Shown here piece after piece: positions 43,724-50,580 of a stretch of 64,000 bases of DNA. The notes beneath the pieces were generated by a model. It did no database searches, was not told the origin of the DNA, and saw only the letters and a program-made list of their open reading frames with translations. Position 1 is the stretch's first letter, and each line of letters begins with the position of its first letter. Position numbers and translations under genes: made by a program. Origin of the DNA: Pseudomonadota bacterium (lineage in GTDB: Bacteria; Pseudomonadota; Gammaproteobacteria; Steroidobacterales; Steroidobacteraceae); contig JAJYUL010000012.1 of NCBI GenBank assembly GCA_021792555.1, positions 1 through 64,000 on the forward strand. The letters run 5' to 3'.

Positions 43724-45625
43724 TCAGGCGCGCCCGACGGAGCGGATGGTGGCGCGGTTCTGCAGCGACCACCAGCGCTCGATGCCCGCGCTCAGGCTCG
43801 CCTCGTCGAGCCCGGCGGCCGCCAGGCACGACTCGCGCGAGCCGTGCTCGATGAAGCGGTCGGGGATGCCGATCTGCATCAGCGGCAGGTTCACGCCCTC
43901 GGCGGCGAGCACCTCGGCGATGGCCGAGCCGGCGCCGCCCTGCACGGCGTTCTCCTCGAGCGTGACGATGGCGGAGTGCCGAGCGGCGATCTCGAGGATC
44001 AGCGCCTCGTCGAGCGGCTTGATGAAGCGCATGTTGACCACGGTGGCATCGAGCCGCTCGCCGATGGCGAGCGCGCTCTCGACCATGGGGCCGAAGGCGA
44101 GCAGCGCAAGCCCGCTGCGCCCCTCGCGCTTTACCTCGCCCTTGCCGATCGGCAGGGCGTGGAACTCCTTCTCGAGCGGCACACCGGGGCCGGTGCCGCG
44201 CGGATAGCGCACCGCCGCAGGCCCCTGCGCCGTCGTGGCGGTGTAGAGCATCTGCCGGCATTCGTTCTCGTCGGCCGGCGCCATGACCACCATGTTGGGT
44301 ATGCAGCGCATGAAGGACAGATCGTAGCTGCCCTGGTGCGTCGCGCCGTCGCTGCCGACGAGGCCCGCGCGGTCGATCGCGAACACCACCGGCAGGTTCT
44401 GCAGCGCGACGTCGTGGATCAGCTGGTCGTAGGCGCGCTGCAGGAAGCTCGAGTAGATGGCCACCACGGGCTTGAAGCCTTCGGTCGCCAGCCCCGCGGC
44501 GAAGGTGACCGCGTGCTGCTCGGCGATGGCCACATCGAAGTAGCGGTCGGGGAAGCGCTTGGAGAACTCGACCAGGCCCGAGCCCTCGCGCATCGCGGGG
44601 GTGATGCCGATGATGCGCGGATCGAGCTCGGCCATGTCGCACAGCCACTGGCCGAAGATCTGCGAGTACGAGGGGCCGCGGGCCGCCTCCTTGAAGATCG
44701 TGCCGCTCGCCGGATCGAACGGGCCCGGCCCGTGCCACTTGATCGGGTCGGCCTCGGCCGGCGCGTAGCCCTTGCCCTTGCGGGTGACGACATGCAGGAA
44801 CTGCGGGCCGTGCAGCTTGCGCACGTTGCGCAGCGTGCCGACCAGCGCGCGCACGTCGTGACCGTCGAGCGGGCCGATGTAATTGAAGCCGAGCTCCTCG
44901 AACAGCGTGCCCGGCAGCACCATGCCCTTCAAGTGCTCCTCCGAGCGGCGCGCCAGCTCCCACACGGTGGGCATCTGGCGCAGCACTTTCTTGCCGCCCT
45001 CGCGCAGCGTCGCGTACAGGCGCCCGGAGAGCGCGGCCGTGAAGTAGTTGGACAACGCGCCGACGTTTTCCGAAATCGACATGTCGTTGTCGTTGAGGAT
45101 CACCAGCAGGTCCGCCGGCAGCGAGCCGGCGTGGTTCAGCGCCTCAAAGGCCATGCCCGCGGTCATGGCGCCATCGCCGATGACGGCCACGACGCGCCGG
45201 TCCGAGCCGTCCCGGCCGGCCGCGACGGCCATGCCGAGCGCGGCGCTGATCGAGGTGCTCGAGTGCCCGACGCCGAAGGTGTCGTATTCGCTCTCGGCGC
45301 GGCTGGGGAAGGGGGCGAGCCCTCCGTGCTGCTTGATGGTGTGCAGCCGCTCGCGTCGCCCGGTGAGCACCTTGTGCGGGTAGGCCTGATGGCCGACGTC
45401 CCACACCAGCCGGTCGTGCGGAGTATCGAAGACGTAATGCAGCGCGATGGTCAGCTCCACGGTCCCAAGGCCGGCGGCGAAATGCCCGCCGCGCGTGCTG
45501 ACGGTGTGGATCAGGAACTGGCGCAGCTCCTCGGCCAGTTGCGGCAGCTGTGTTTCCGGTATCCGCCTGAGGTCGGCGGGCAGCTCGATCTGATCGAGCA
45601 AGGGGTAGCTTTGGGGCGCGCTCAT
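43724..45625 (-). CDS. dxs: 1-Deoxy-D-xylulose-5-phosphate synthase Dxs
   Basis: Predicted protein of 633 aa. It condenses pyruvate and glyceraldehyde-3-phosphate, first step of the MEP isoprenoid pathway. Thiamine-diphosphate site: [18 protein letters not shown] then LNDNDMSIS; transketolase features [29 protein letters not shown] and YPRGTG. It follows xseB by 73 bases. The usual ispA gene between xseB and dxs is absent. Confidence 0.96.
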
Positions 45626-45698
45626 CAGCGGCAGTGTACACTGGCCGAGGCGGCGAGGCCCCGTGTGTTGCGATTCGACAACATATCAGGCAGCGGCC

Positions 45699-45983
45699 TC
45701 ACTGGGCGGGGCCGGCGGCGCCTTCCGGGCTTTCCGCGACCGCAAAGGGCTCGATTTCAGGCTGTCCATTGCGCTTGATCAGGATCTCGACTCGCTGCTG
45801 CGCCGCTTTGAGTGCATTCTGGCAGTGGCGCGTCAGCTCGACGCCACGCTCGAATACGCGCAGCGCCTCCTCGAGCGGCAGGTCACCGCCTTCGAGCCGC
45901 TCGACCACGGATTCCAGTTCCGCCAGCGCCTGTTCAAAATCGGGGAGCTGCTGATCGGATGCCACGCCAAAATCTCCATACAT
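45699..45983 (-). CDS. xseB: Exodeoxyribonuclease VII small subunit XseB
   Basis: Predicted protein of 94 aa. Helical hairpin signature DFEQALAELESVVERLEGGDLPLEEALRVFERGVEL is diagnostic, followed by a short tail. It binds XseA to form exonuclease VII, which degrades single-stranded DNA. It lies upstream of dxs on the same strand, a common pairing. The start might be a few codons later (GTG within FGVASDQQ). Confidence 0.92.
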   Translation of the reverse strand: MYGDFGVASDQQLPDFEQALAELESVVERLEGGDLPLEEALRVFERGVELTRHCQNALKAAQQRVEILIKRNGQPEIEPFAVAESPEGAAGPAQ

Positions 45984-46059
45984 GGCCGCGGCGCAGGGTC
46001 GCGGGTCGGGGATGCACGGGCGCCACCTTATACACCGCTTTTCCGGGGGTCAATTCCGG

Positions 46060-46088
46060 TTGACGCCCCGCAGGCATGCGCTTAAAGT
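46060..46088 (+). promoter_or_regulatory. Sigma70-type promoter for the rubrerythrin operon
   Basis: TTGACG (46060-46065) and TAAAGT (46083-46088) are separated by 17 bases, a good spacing. Transcription would start near 46095, about 33 bases before the ATG at 46128. The palindrome at 46100-46114 then lies at the start of the transcript. Confidence 0.5.
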
Positions 46089-46099
46089 CTTTGCCCCAG

Positions 46100-46114
46100 T
46101 TAGAACCAGTCTAA
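46100..46114. promoter_or_regulatory. Palindromic operator candidate ahead of the rubrerythrin gene
   Basis: TTAGA-accag-TCTAA is a perfect inverted repeat just downstream of the predicted start site. Its A/T-rich arms stand out in GC-rich DNA. Position fits repression by a redox- or iron-sensing regulator, possibly Rrf2-like. The regulator is inferred, not identified. Confidence 0.5.
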
Positions 46115-46127
46115 ATCGGAGAGCGGC

Positions 46128-46541
46128 ATGAACCTCAAAGGCAGCAAAACCGAGCAGAACCTGAAGGACGCGTTTGCGGGTGAGTCCCAGGCGAATCGCC
46201 GGTACCTGTATTTCGCAGCCAAGGCGGACGTCGAAGGCTTCAATGACGTCTCGGCGGTGTTTCGTTCGACTGCCGAGGGCGAGACCGGACACGCGCACGG
46301 CCACCTGGAGTACCTGGAAGCGGTGGGCGATCCGGCCACGGGCCTGCCGATCGGCGAGACGAAGCTCAATCTGAAGGCCGCCATCGCCGGGGAGACCCAC
46401 GAGTACACGGACATGTACCCGGGCATGGCCAAGACGGCCCGCGACGAGGGATTCACCGAGATCGCCGATTGGTTCGAGACGCTCGCCAAGGCCGAGCGCT
46501 CGCACGCCAATCGCTTCCAGAAGGCTCTCGACAACCTGTAA
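46128..46541 (+). CDS. Rubrerythrin-family diiron protein (ferritin-like domain only)
   Basis: Predicted protein of 137 aa. Four-helix diiron motifs: [48 protein letters not shown] and AERSHANRF. The C-terminal rubredoxin-like iron site of classic rubrerythrin is missing, so electrons must come from another partner. Rubrerythrins reduce hydrogen peroxide. It is followed, after a long hairpin, by an Fe-S protein and a DUF3501 gene, suggesting a redox unit. GGAGAG lies 5-6 bases before the ATG. Confidence 0.9.
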
Positions 46542-46556
46542 CGCACGCGCGCCCGG

Positions 46557-46588
46557 GCGCAGGGTCCGCCGCGCGGCGGACCCTGCGC
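46557..46588 (+). terminator. Perfect 14-bp stem-loop between rubrerythrin and Fe-S protein genes
   Basis: A 14-bp perfect stem (46557-46570 with 46575-46588) surrounds a GCGC loop. It lies 15 bases after the rubrerythrin stop and 25 before the next ATG. No U-tract follows, so it may be a partial terminator or RNA-stability element giving more rubrerythrin than downstream products. Confidence 0.55.
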
Positions 46589-46613
46589 GCCGATCGCCCA
46601 TCGGTAGGTTCGC

Positions 46614-47993
46614 ATGAGCACGACTGAGAGCACTCCGGGCCGCGCGGCCGGCCGCGAGGGCAGCCTCGAGGCCCCCACCCGCCATCCGCTCGACTGGCGC
46701 AGCGCCGAGTTCTACGACGAGGCCGCGCTGCACAAGGAGCTGGAGCGCGTGTTCGAGATCTGCCACGGCTGCCGGCGCTGCTTCAGCCTGTGCAACGCGT
46801 TCCCGACGCTGTTCGATGCGATCGACGCGACCTCGAGCGGGGAGCTCGAGCAGGTCGAGCGCAAGGTGTTCTGGCAGGTGGTGGATCACTGCTACCTGTG
46901 CGACATGTGCTTCATGACCAAGTGCCCGTACGTGCCGCCGCACCCCTGGGCAGTCGACTTCCCGCACCTGATGCTGCGCGCCAAGGCGGTGCGCACCCGC
47001 AAGGAGGGCGTCAGTCTGCGCAACCGCGCGCTGGCGGCGACCGAGACGGTCGGGCGAATCGCGGGCATTCCGGTGGTCGCGCAGGTGGTCAACGCCGTGA
47101 ATCGCTCGAAGGCGGGCCGCGCGCTGCTCGAGAAGACCCTCGGCGTCGATGCGAGCGCGCCGGTGCCCCAGTACCACTCGCGCACCGCGCGCAAGCGCCT
47201 GGCGCGGCTCGGCACGGCGGGCGCCCCTTCCGGCGCCGCCGAGGCGCCGCGCGAGACCCCCGGGACGACCGGCAAAGTGGCCCTGTTCACCACCTGTTAC
47301 GGCAACCGCAACGAGCCCGAGCTCGATGAGGACCTCGCCGCCGTGTTCGAACACAACGGCATCTCGGTCAGCCTGCTCGCGGCCGAGCACTGCTGCGGGA
47401 TGCCGCGCCTCGAGCTCGGCGACCTCGAGGCCGTCGCGCGTCTGAAGGAGCAGAACATTCCGCAGCTGCTCGCGGCGATCGACGCCGGTTACGACATCGT
47501 GGCGCCGATTCCCTCGTGCGTGCTGATGTTCAAGCAGGAGCTGCCGCTGATGTTCCCCGGCGAGGCGGACGTGCAGCGCGTGGCCAAGCGCATCTTCGAT
47601 CCGTTCGAGTACCTGATGCTGCGTCACCGCGCCGGCGCGTTGCGCACGGATTTCAAGCAGCCGCTCGGCAAGGTGAGCTATCACGTGCCGTGTCATCTGC
47701 GCGTGCAGAACATCGGCCTGAAGACGCGCGACGTGCTGCAGCTGGTGCCCGGCACCACGGTCGAGCCCATCGAGCGCTGCTCCGGGCATGACGGCACCTA
47801 CGGGGTGAAGAAGGAATTTCGCGCCGCCTCGATGAAGATCGGCCGGCCCGTAATAAGCCGGGTCGAGGCGAGCGGCGCGGCGCACTACGCCAGCGATTGC
47901 CCCATGGCGGGCCACCAGATCGAAAGCGGCCTCGCCTCCGGCGCCGCGCCCGAGCATCCACTGCGGCTGCTGCGGCTCGCCTACGGCCTGTGA
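46614..47993 (+). CDS. Cysteine-rich Fe-S protein, heterodisulfide reductase/GlpC-like
   Basis: Predicted protein of 459 aa. Two 4Fe-4S motifs near the N-terminus ([11 protein letters not shown] at about 50, [13 protein letters not shown] at about 93) are followed by two CCG-type domains: [15 protein letters not shown] and [16 protein letters not shown] ... [10 protein letters not shown]. This is the layout of HdrD/GlpC/GlcF-like electron-transfer subunits, here without a flavin partner. Neighbours are a rubredoxin-less rubrerythrin and a DUF3501 protein, so a role in passing electrons to rubrerythrin is inferred. Cytoplasmic or peripheral; no signal peptide. Confidence 0.82.
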
Positions 47994-48013
47994 CTGCCGC
48001 ACGTGAGGGTACC

Positions 48014-48598
48014 GTGCAGAAACTGACTCCCGCCGACCTGATGAGCCTCGAGCGCTACGCGCGCGAGCGCGAGGCTTTCCGTGCGCGCGTGCTCGAGCAC
48101 AAGCGCCATCGCCGGCTCGCCGTGGGGCCGAACCTCACCTGGTGCTTCGAAGACCGCCTCACCATCCAGTACCAGATCCAGGAGATGCTGCGCGCGGAGC
48201 GGATTTTCGAGCCGGAGGGCATCGCCGAGGAGCTCGCCGCGTACAACCCGCTGATTCCCGACGGGGCGAACTGGAAGGTGACGCTGCTCATCGAGTTTCC
48301 CGATGTCGCCGAGCGGCAACGGCAGCTCGCGCAGCTGAAGGGCATCGAGAGGCGCTGCTGGGTGGAGGTGCGCGGGCACGCGGCCGTGTACGCCATCGCC
48401 GATGAGGACCTCGAGCGTGAGAACGAGGAGAAGACCTCGGCGGTGCATTTTCTGCGCTTCGACCTCGCGCCCGACATGACCGCCGCGCTGCGCGCCGGCG
48501 CGCCGCTCGCCGCCGGAGTGGATCACGAGCACTATCGCCACTGGGTGAACCCGCTGCCCGAGGCGGTGCGCGCGGCGCTGCTCGCGGATCTGGCCTGA
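48014..48598 (+). CDS. DUF3501 family protein of the rubrerythrin cluster
   Basis: Predicted protein of 194 aa. The strongly conserved family blocks are FEDRLTIQYQIQEMLRAERIFE, YNPLIPDGANWKVTLLIEF, AIADEDLEREN, KTSAVHFLRFDL and GVDHEHYRHW. I know no demonstrated function for the family. It is regularly found beside rubrerythrin and Fe-S genes, as here. GTG at 48014 follows GAGG; a GTG at 47990 overlapping the previous stop is an alternative. Many Glu, His and Asp residues might bind metal, but this is speculation. Confidence 0.8.
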   Translation: MQKLTPADLMSLERYAREREAFRARVLEHKRHRRLAVGPNLTWCFEDRLTIQYQIQEMLRAERIFEPEGIAEELAAYNPLIPDGANWKVTLLIEFPDVAERQRQLAQLKGIERRCWVEVRGHAAVYAIADEDLERENEEKTSAVHFLRFDLAPDMTAALRAGAPLAAGVDHEHYRHWVNPLPEAVRAALLADLA

Positions 48599-48636
48599 GG
48601 CGCCAAAATCGCGTCCCCGGGCGCGCGGTGCTGTAA

Positions 48637-50580
<1,944 letters not shown>

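Follow-up and report, generated by a model that had tools for sequence, protein, structure and literature searches.

What do a rubrerythrin without rubredoxin, a GlpC-like Fe–S protein and a DUF3501 protein do together, and when does the cell call on them? Genes for the three (RBR, RFO and DUF3501) lie next to one another in the 64,000-nucleotide stretch analysed here (positions 1 to 64,000 of contig JAJYUL010000012.1, assembly GCA_021792555.1, Steroidobacteraceae; 'the window'). A sequence-only reading had proposed them as a candidate undescribed redox system. A redox/peroxide function is indeed likely, but the system had been described: the rubredoxin-less rubrerythrin ferriperoxin (Fpx) was characterised in 2012 (PMC3317640), the trio was named and analysed by Cardenas et al. 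in 2016 as the aerobic-type rubrerythrin system RBR–DUF3501–RFO (PMC5114695) and mitochondrial targeting was predicted in 2020 (PMC7050145). The operon belongs to this already described kind of peroxide-defence unit, to which we add a supported proposal for its regulation and a ligand change in RFO that is diagnostic and can be tested. On balance, we favour reading it as a repressor-controlled peroxide defence built on an aerobic-type rubrerythrin, with RFO as electron donor and DUF3501 as adaptor.

RBR, RFO and DUF3501 make up a single unit that has a promoter and an operator to itself (Table 1); as had been claimed, all three genes are on the forward strand, with intergenic gaps of 72 bp and 20 bp. 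The unit also withstood the co-occurrence check proposed for it, which looked for independent occurrence of the genes. Among 185 genomes of the class, searched with an RFO threshold of E 1e-40 and counting only strong RBR matches (weak matches, to other rubrerythrins, were set aside in 12 genomes, and G164, with all three genes fragmentary, was counted as a full trio), we computed all three genes in 77, one or two in 4 and none in 104. DUF3501 was found in 79, RFO in 78 and strong RBR in 80, and DUF3501 is tied to RBR slightly more tightly than RFO is. The one-strand order RBR–RFO–DUF3501 was present at 73 of the 80 RBR places (G164 left out; some of the other 7 are at contig ends). In a nearer set of 81 loci (80 close relatives plus one cut stretch of the source genome) the plain order was seen in 74, the other 7 having split open reading frames or a gene missing where the stretch or contig ends. 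A search of 398 genomes of the phylum at 1e-30 gave 36 matches, 25 of them RFO (at least 331 bits) and 11 GlpC-like (110–141 bits); 15 of these 25 RFOs lay outside the class, and RBR and DUF3501 adjoined RFO in 15/15.

With the system of Cardenas et al. the operon shares the three families, the absence of rubredoxin and the idea of RFO as donor: its RBR is rubredoxin-less, DUF3501 follows on the same strand two genes on and a COG0247-type Fe–S oxidoreductase adjoins. Their survey reported the full trio in 185 of 4461 genomes and RBR–DUF3501 only in 25; in the main text of that paper we found neither a regulator or operator nor a cysteine signature for RFO (PMC5114695). The trio has also been reported in a hot-spring lineage (PMC7852563), in Acidihalobacter (PMC7760498) and, as homologues with predicted mitochondrial targeting, in Andalucia, besides other eukaryotes/protists (PMC7050145). 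Its interest lies in its presence in many aerobes and, as argued in PMC7050145, in the ancestral mitochondrion.

Sequence comparisons indicate that an Irr/PerR-like repressor very probably controls the operon. The Irr-box-like palindrome TTAGAACCAGTCTAA occurs once in the window and in 0 of 100 shuffles, and the exact pattern TTAGA-N5-TCTAA occurs a single time in the 3.51-Mb genome, at this operator. A reversed control pattern was also found once in that genome and is equally rare; the evidence for an operator is therefore its place and conservation, not its rarity. Its location suits a site where a repressor would cover the transcription start, as that start is predicted from the −10 element. 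The exact box was found upstream of RBR in 64 of the 78 nearer loci that have RBR, with one mismatch in 3.

The source genome has three Fur-family genes, namely Fur, a Zur-like gene and one on another contig (G000:C51:492-926; L084), which we call the C51 regulator. Its relatives were detected in 75 of the 185 class genomes (E 1e-12; weakest G006, 51 bits). RBR and regulator were both present in 59 genomes, the regulator only in 16, RBR only in 21 and neither in 89 (p 3.7e-16, a value inflated by shared descent). The box is the sharper test: it was exact within 250 bp of RBR in 50 of the 59 regulator-positive genomes, with one mismatch in 3 more. Of the 21 places in 20 genomes lacking the regulator, 4 had it exact; shuffling each sequence gave 0.05%. 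When the 21 genomes with RBR but no regulator were searched again under relaxed conditions, 20 yielded matches of the Fur or Zur kind alone, and G178 (72% complete, one of the four box-positive exceptions) yielded none. In three class genomes (G006, G093 and G142) and at 5 of the 15 loci from beyond the class, the regulator gene is a neighbour of the operon; in G043 and G184 (one genus), a box lies ~75 bp ahead of the region of that gene that gave the match.

The C51 regulator is best matched by the models for IrrA (139.3 bits) and Irr (129.5 bits). In an alignment of 14 Irr-like rows (13 proteins and one duplicate of the C51 regulator), Asp stood at both PerR positions (D85 and D104 in PerR numbering) in 14/14, versus Glu/Glu in 21/21 Fur rows. 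The structural Zn CxxC was present in 0/14 Irr-like rows and 16/21 Fur rows, while the HxH haem motif (H98, H100) of all Irr-like rows does not discriminate, its His residues being shared by the 21 Fur rows. Rhodobacter Irr offers parallels: it binds TTAGAAATATTCTAGA, which resembles our operator box, in gel shift, two other predicted boxes there being unbound (PMC6956336), and Irr boxes are reported at the rubrerythrin-like mbfA and at the cytochrome peroxidase gene ccpA (PMC3413700). Because of the sub-cut-off Irr scores, PerR-type Asp residues, missing CxxC and these parallels, we term the regulator Irr/PerR-like and file it in neither family. A review describes Irr as alphaproteobacterial with few exceptions (PMC7762939), whereas the 75 genomes with Irr-like regulators here are Gammaproteobacteria.

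RBR is, by the literature on its homologues, almost certainly a peroxidase. It matched PF02915 (Rubrerythrin, E 2.7e-29) and PF00210 (Ferritin) and no further family. The earlier description of it as rubredoxin-less was right: it has no C-terminal rubredoxin domain and zero cysteines, and scored 139.6 of the 200 bits needed for the classical rubrerythrin model NF045767. Seven positions, which we take to be the diiron ligands by rubrerythrin numbering, are unchanged in 80/80 RBR sequences. RBR is of the aerobic ferriperoxin/sulerythrin kind; its best solved-structure relative matched at E 9.7e-76 (PDB), and archaeal sulerythrin (PDB 1j30 and others), a more remote sequence than the top PDB matches, aligned at E 9.4e-51 along almost the full length of RBR. 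Fpx of Hydrogenobacter thermophilus, likewise a single domain without rubredoxin, is a peroxidase that depends on NADPH and FNR and is required for aerobic growth (PMC3317640); in that species RFO is encoded apart from the other two genes (PMC5114695).

RFO gave two PF02754 (CCG) stretches (E 1.2e-15); Fer4 models fell below their own cut-offs, yet two ferredoxin-type Cys motifs are evident, which agrees with the two 4Fe–4S-type and two CCG domains assigned earlier. This architecture is shared with GlpC (anaerobic glycerol-3-phosphate dehydrogenase subunit C), the best NCBIfam match of RFO, although the scores are below cut-off (237.9 bits against 278, and 147.5 against 279.9 for a second GlpC model). 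Relative to GlpC, the second CCG domain of RFO has CC changed to CS, CxxC to CxxA and Ile to His, that is, two Cys lost and one His gained in 90/90 RFOs; S390 and A432 replace Cys, and the five-cysteine site of GlpC is not present. These scores and replacements set RFO apart from GlpC. The tandem fits the HdrB/CCG fold, and RFO resembles LutA, EtfD and HdrB, presumably redox proteins, to judge by their names. Its second CCG domain may carry an altered, possibly His-ligated cluster site. This signature distinguishes RFO from GlpC in annotation, where the two have been mixed up (for example, the glpC name in PMC2739297), and points to residues worth mutating.

We consider it fairly likely that RFO is the electron donor to RBR; the earlier suggestion that it replaces rubredoxin is plausible and had already been made in PMC5114695. 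DUF3501 (PF12007, 240 bits against a cut-off of 25; E 2e-71) has no conserved cysteine and, from weak matches, an apparent Ig-like beta-sandwich core, and we tentatively suggest that it is an adaptor. Its most likely start is GTG 48014, read off the sequence behind GAGGG; our analyses ran from 48017, and their residue numbers are one below those of the 194-aa protein.

These parts could work together as follows. At rest, the Irr/PerR-like Fur-family repressor encoded on C51 would be bound to the palindrome where transcription begins and so keep the genes off, and peroxide, or the accompanying iron/haem state, would inactivate it. The RBR diiron site would then reduce H2O2, and probably organic hydroperoxides too, with RFO as a GlpC-like carrier passing on electrons instead of the missing rubredoxin. 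The second CCG domain, in which three Cys and an invariant nearby His have taken the place of a five-cysteine site, may hold a His-ligated cluster, and DUF3501 would most likely serve RBR as a partner in docking or assembly. Computation shows the unit, the co-occurrence of its families, the link between box and regulator and the signature of the second CCG domain; the direction of regulation, the path of the electrons, the His ligation and the part played by DUF3501 are inferred. A bolder combination, which we regard as doubtful, makes this domain a new cluster site of three Cys and one His (C360, C389, C429, H392), derived from the GlpC-type five-Cys site through the loss of two Cys and the gain of one His. 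That site would be the last donor, of raised potential, before the diiron peroxidase, DUF3501 would be the docking subunit, and an Irr/PerR-like repressor that is common in Gammaproteobacteria would switch the whole complex.

Several observations weigh against the repressor-controlled defence as we read it. The C51 regulator is under both NCBIfam cut-offs (IrrA 150, Irr 170), and the regulator occurs in 16 genomes without RBR, 7 of them without any TTAGAMNNNKTCTAA site. An exact box stands at 4 regulator-negative places and is missing from 9 of the 59 regulator-positive genomes, and a genome-wide pattern search found none ahead of the regulator gene in the source genome. Outside the class, just 2 of 15 loci had an exact box and 4 had one with a single mismatch, and at the 5 loci with an adjoining regulator none was exact (mismatches 4, 1, 2, 1, 1). 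The trio is sometimes broken, with RBR and DUF3501 but no RFO in two genomes (G064, G079), RFO alone in one (G116) and RBR alone in one (G032), and the contact between RFO and RBR is one that we infer. In Sulfolobus, H2O2 raised transcripts of rubrerythrin and its glpC-like neighbour, but two of three rubrerythrin protein spots dropped (PMC2739297). Fpx is active in vitro with NADPH and FNR and no RFO (PMC3317640); RFO is therefore not strictly needed.

The Fpx result favours an alternative that we think unlikely but worth weighing, in which FNR/ferredoxin reduces RBR while RFO and DUF3501 repair, metallate or protect its diiron site. NADPH and FNR alone sufficed for Fpx, DUF3501 lacks a conserved Cys and the two genomes of 185 with RBR–DUF3501 but no RFO would suit such a maturation role. 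All eight ferredoxin-type Cys of RFO are kept, however, in 74–75 of 75 sequences, as expected of an electron carrier, and its resemblance to LutA, EtfD and HdrB points the same way.

Other genes, too, lie behind the box. Because the box tracks the regulator at RBR and elsewhere precedes katG, peroxiredoxin and bacterioferritin, the operon is probably a member of a peroxide/iron regulon. The further sites are a selection and not a random sample, several more lacked an informative neighbour and the pattern itself has background; those selected include katG (L131, 45 bp), peroxiredoxin C (L129, 34 bp), bacterioferritin (L257, 53 bp), a SUF regulator (L253, 20 bp), MauG-like dihaem proteins (L125 and L251, by family models below cut-off; L133, by eye), HtpX (L134), an arsenic_eff-family transporter (L258) and Fnr (L127, just under cut-off). 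Operator and regulator offer a handle on when the trio is used, and group it with katG, peroxiredoxin and bacterioferritin. The bacterioferritin site, in one genome, and the Ferritin match of RBR would fit an iron storage or detoxification device of an Irr-type regulon, a ferritin-like protein with a ferric reductase for which peroxide is secondary. We hold this improbable, given that katG (1), peroxiredoxin (1) and MauG-like (3) sites stand against one bacterioferritin site among those inspected, and that the fpx disruptant is oxygen- and peroxide-sensitive (PMC3317640).

It is very unlikely that RFO is an HdrB/GlpC-like disulfide- or quinone-linked oxidoreductase whose gene sits here only through a common stress regulon: the CCG tandem would suit this, but the two Cys completing the GlpC site are absent from 90/90 RFOs and just 1 of 78 RFO genomes lacks RBR. 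Equally little speaks for another regulator, such as Fur itself, at the operator, since, although Fur-family boxes look alike and four regulator-negative places have an exact box, 20 of the 21 regulator-negative genomes have Fur-family matches, all Fur or Zur, and yet 17 of 21 RBR places lack it.

Table 1 Features of the RBR–RFO–DUF3501 locus, in positions of the window.
Feature	Position	Strand	Details
xseB/dxs	43724..45983	−	flank, on the strand opposite to the trio
Sigma-70-type promoter TTGACG-17-TAAAGT	46060..46088	+	sole promoter-like hit in 45950-48760; shuffles mean 0.1
Operator palindrome TTAGAACCAGTCTAA, Irr-box-like	46100..46114	.	11 bp past −10, 13 bp ahead of RBR start codon
RBR ribosome-binding site GGAGAG	46118..46123	+	read off sequence
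RBR gene, 137 aa	46128..46541	+	ATG 46128; PF02915 match
Fe–S protein (RFO) gene, 459 aa	46614..47993	+	two PF02754 (CCG) stretches
RFO ferredoxin-type motif 1	46761..46793	+	C50, C53, C56, C60; kept in 74 or 75/75 RFOs
RFO ferredoxin-type motif 2	46890..46925	+	C93, C96, C99, C104; kept in 75/75 RFOs
RFO CCG domain 1	47277..47534	+	C228, C260, C261, C302; same four Cys in GlpC
RFO CCG domain 2, altered	47673..47924	+	C360 H361, C389 S390 G391 H392, C429xxA432
DUF3501 gene, 194 aa	48014..48598	+	GTG start; PF12007 match
parE	48688..50580		downstream flank; ATG at 48688

The spot between xseB/dxs and parE is an old, fixed place of the operon. parE follows the operon in 58 of 71 related loci, and xseB/dxs stands ahead of it in many. 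Because a sequence scan found no terminator-like site between DUF3501 and parE, transcription could run on into parE.

Outside the source genome, an iPGM (phosphoglycerate mutase, gpmI) gene with a divergent ArsR-type gene had the box 21–71 bp ahead in four genomes: G033 (L256, by family model), G132 (L124), G045 (L128) and the incomplete (72%) G178 without detected regulator (L135), the last three named by eye. This glycolysis enzyme is possibly under the peroxide/iron regulator. The orphan RFO of G116 (L279, G116:C144:3153-4475) lies between cheD-like and thiL-like genes (both named by eye), and the 8 kb stretch around it showed neither RBR nor DUF3501. G088 has two RBR copies (L169, L191), one adjoining DUF3501 and the other RFO. 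In G164 (G164:C70:51659-52698) all three genes stand side by side as fragments, the DUF3501 pieces with stops, and the trio seems to decay together.
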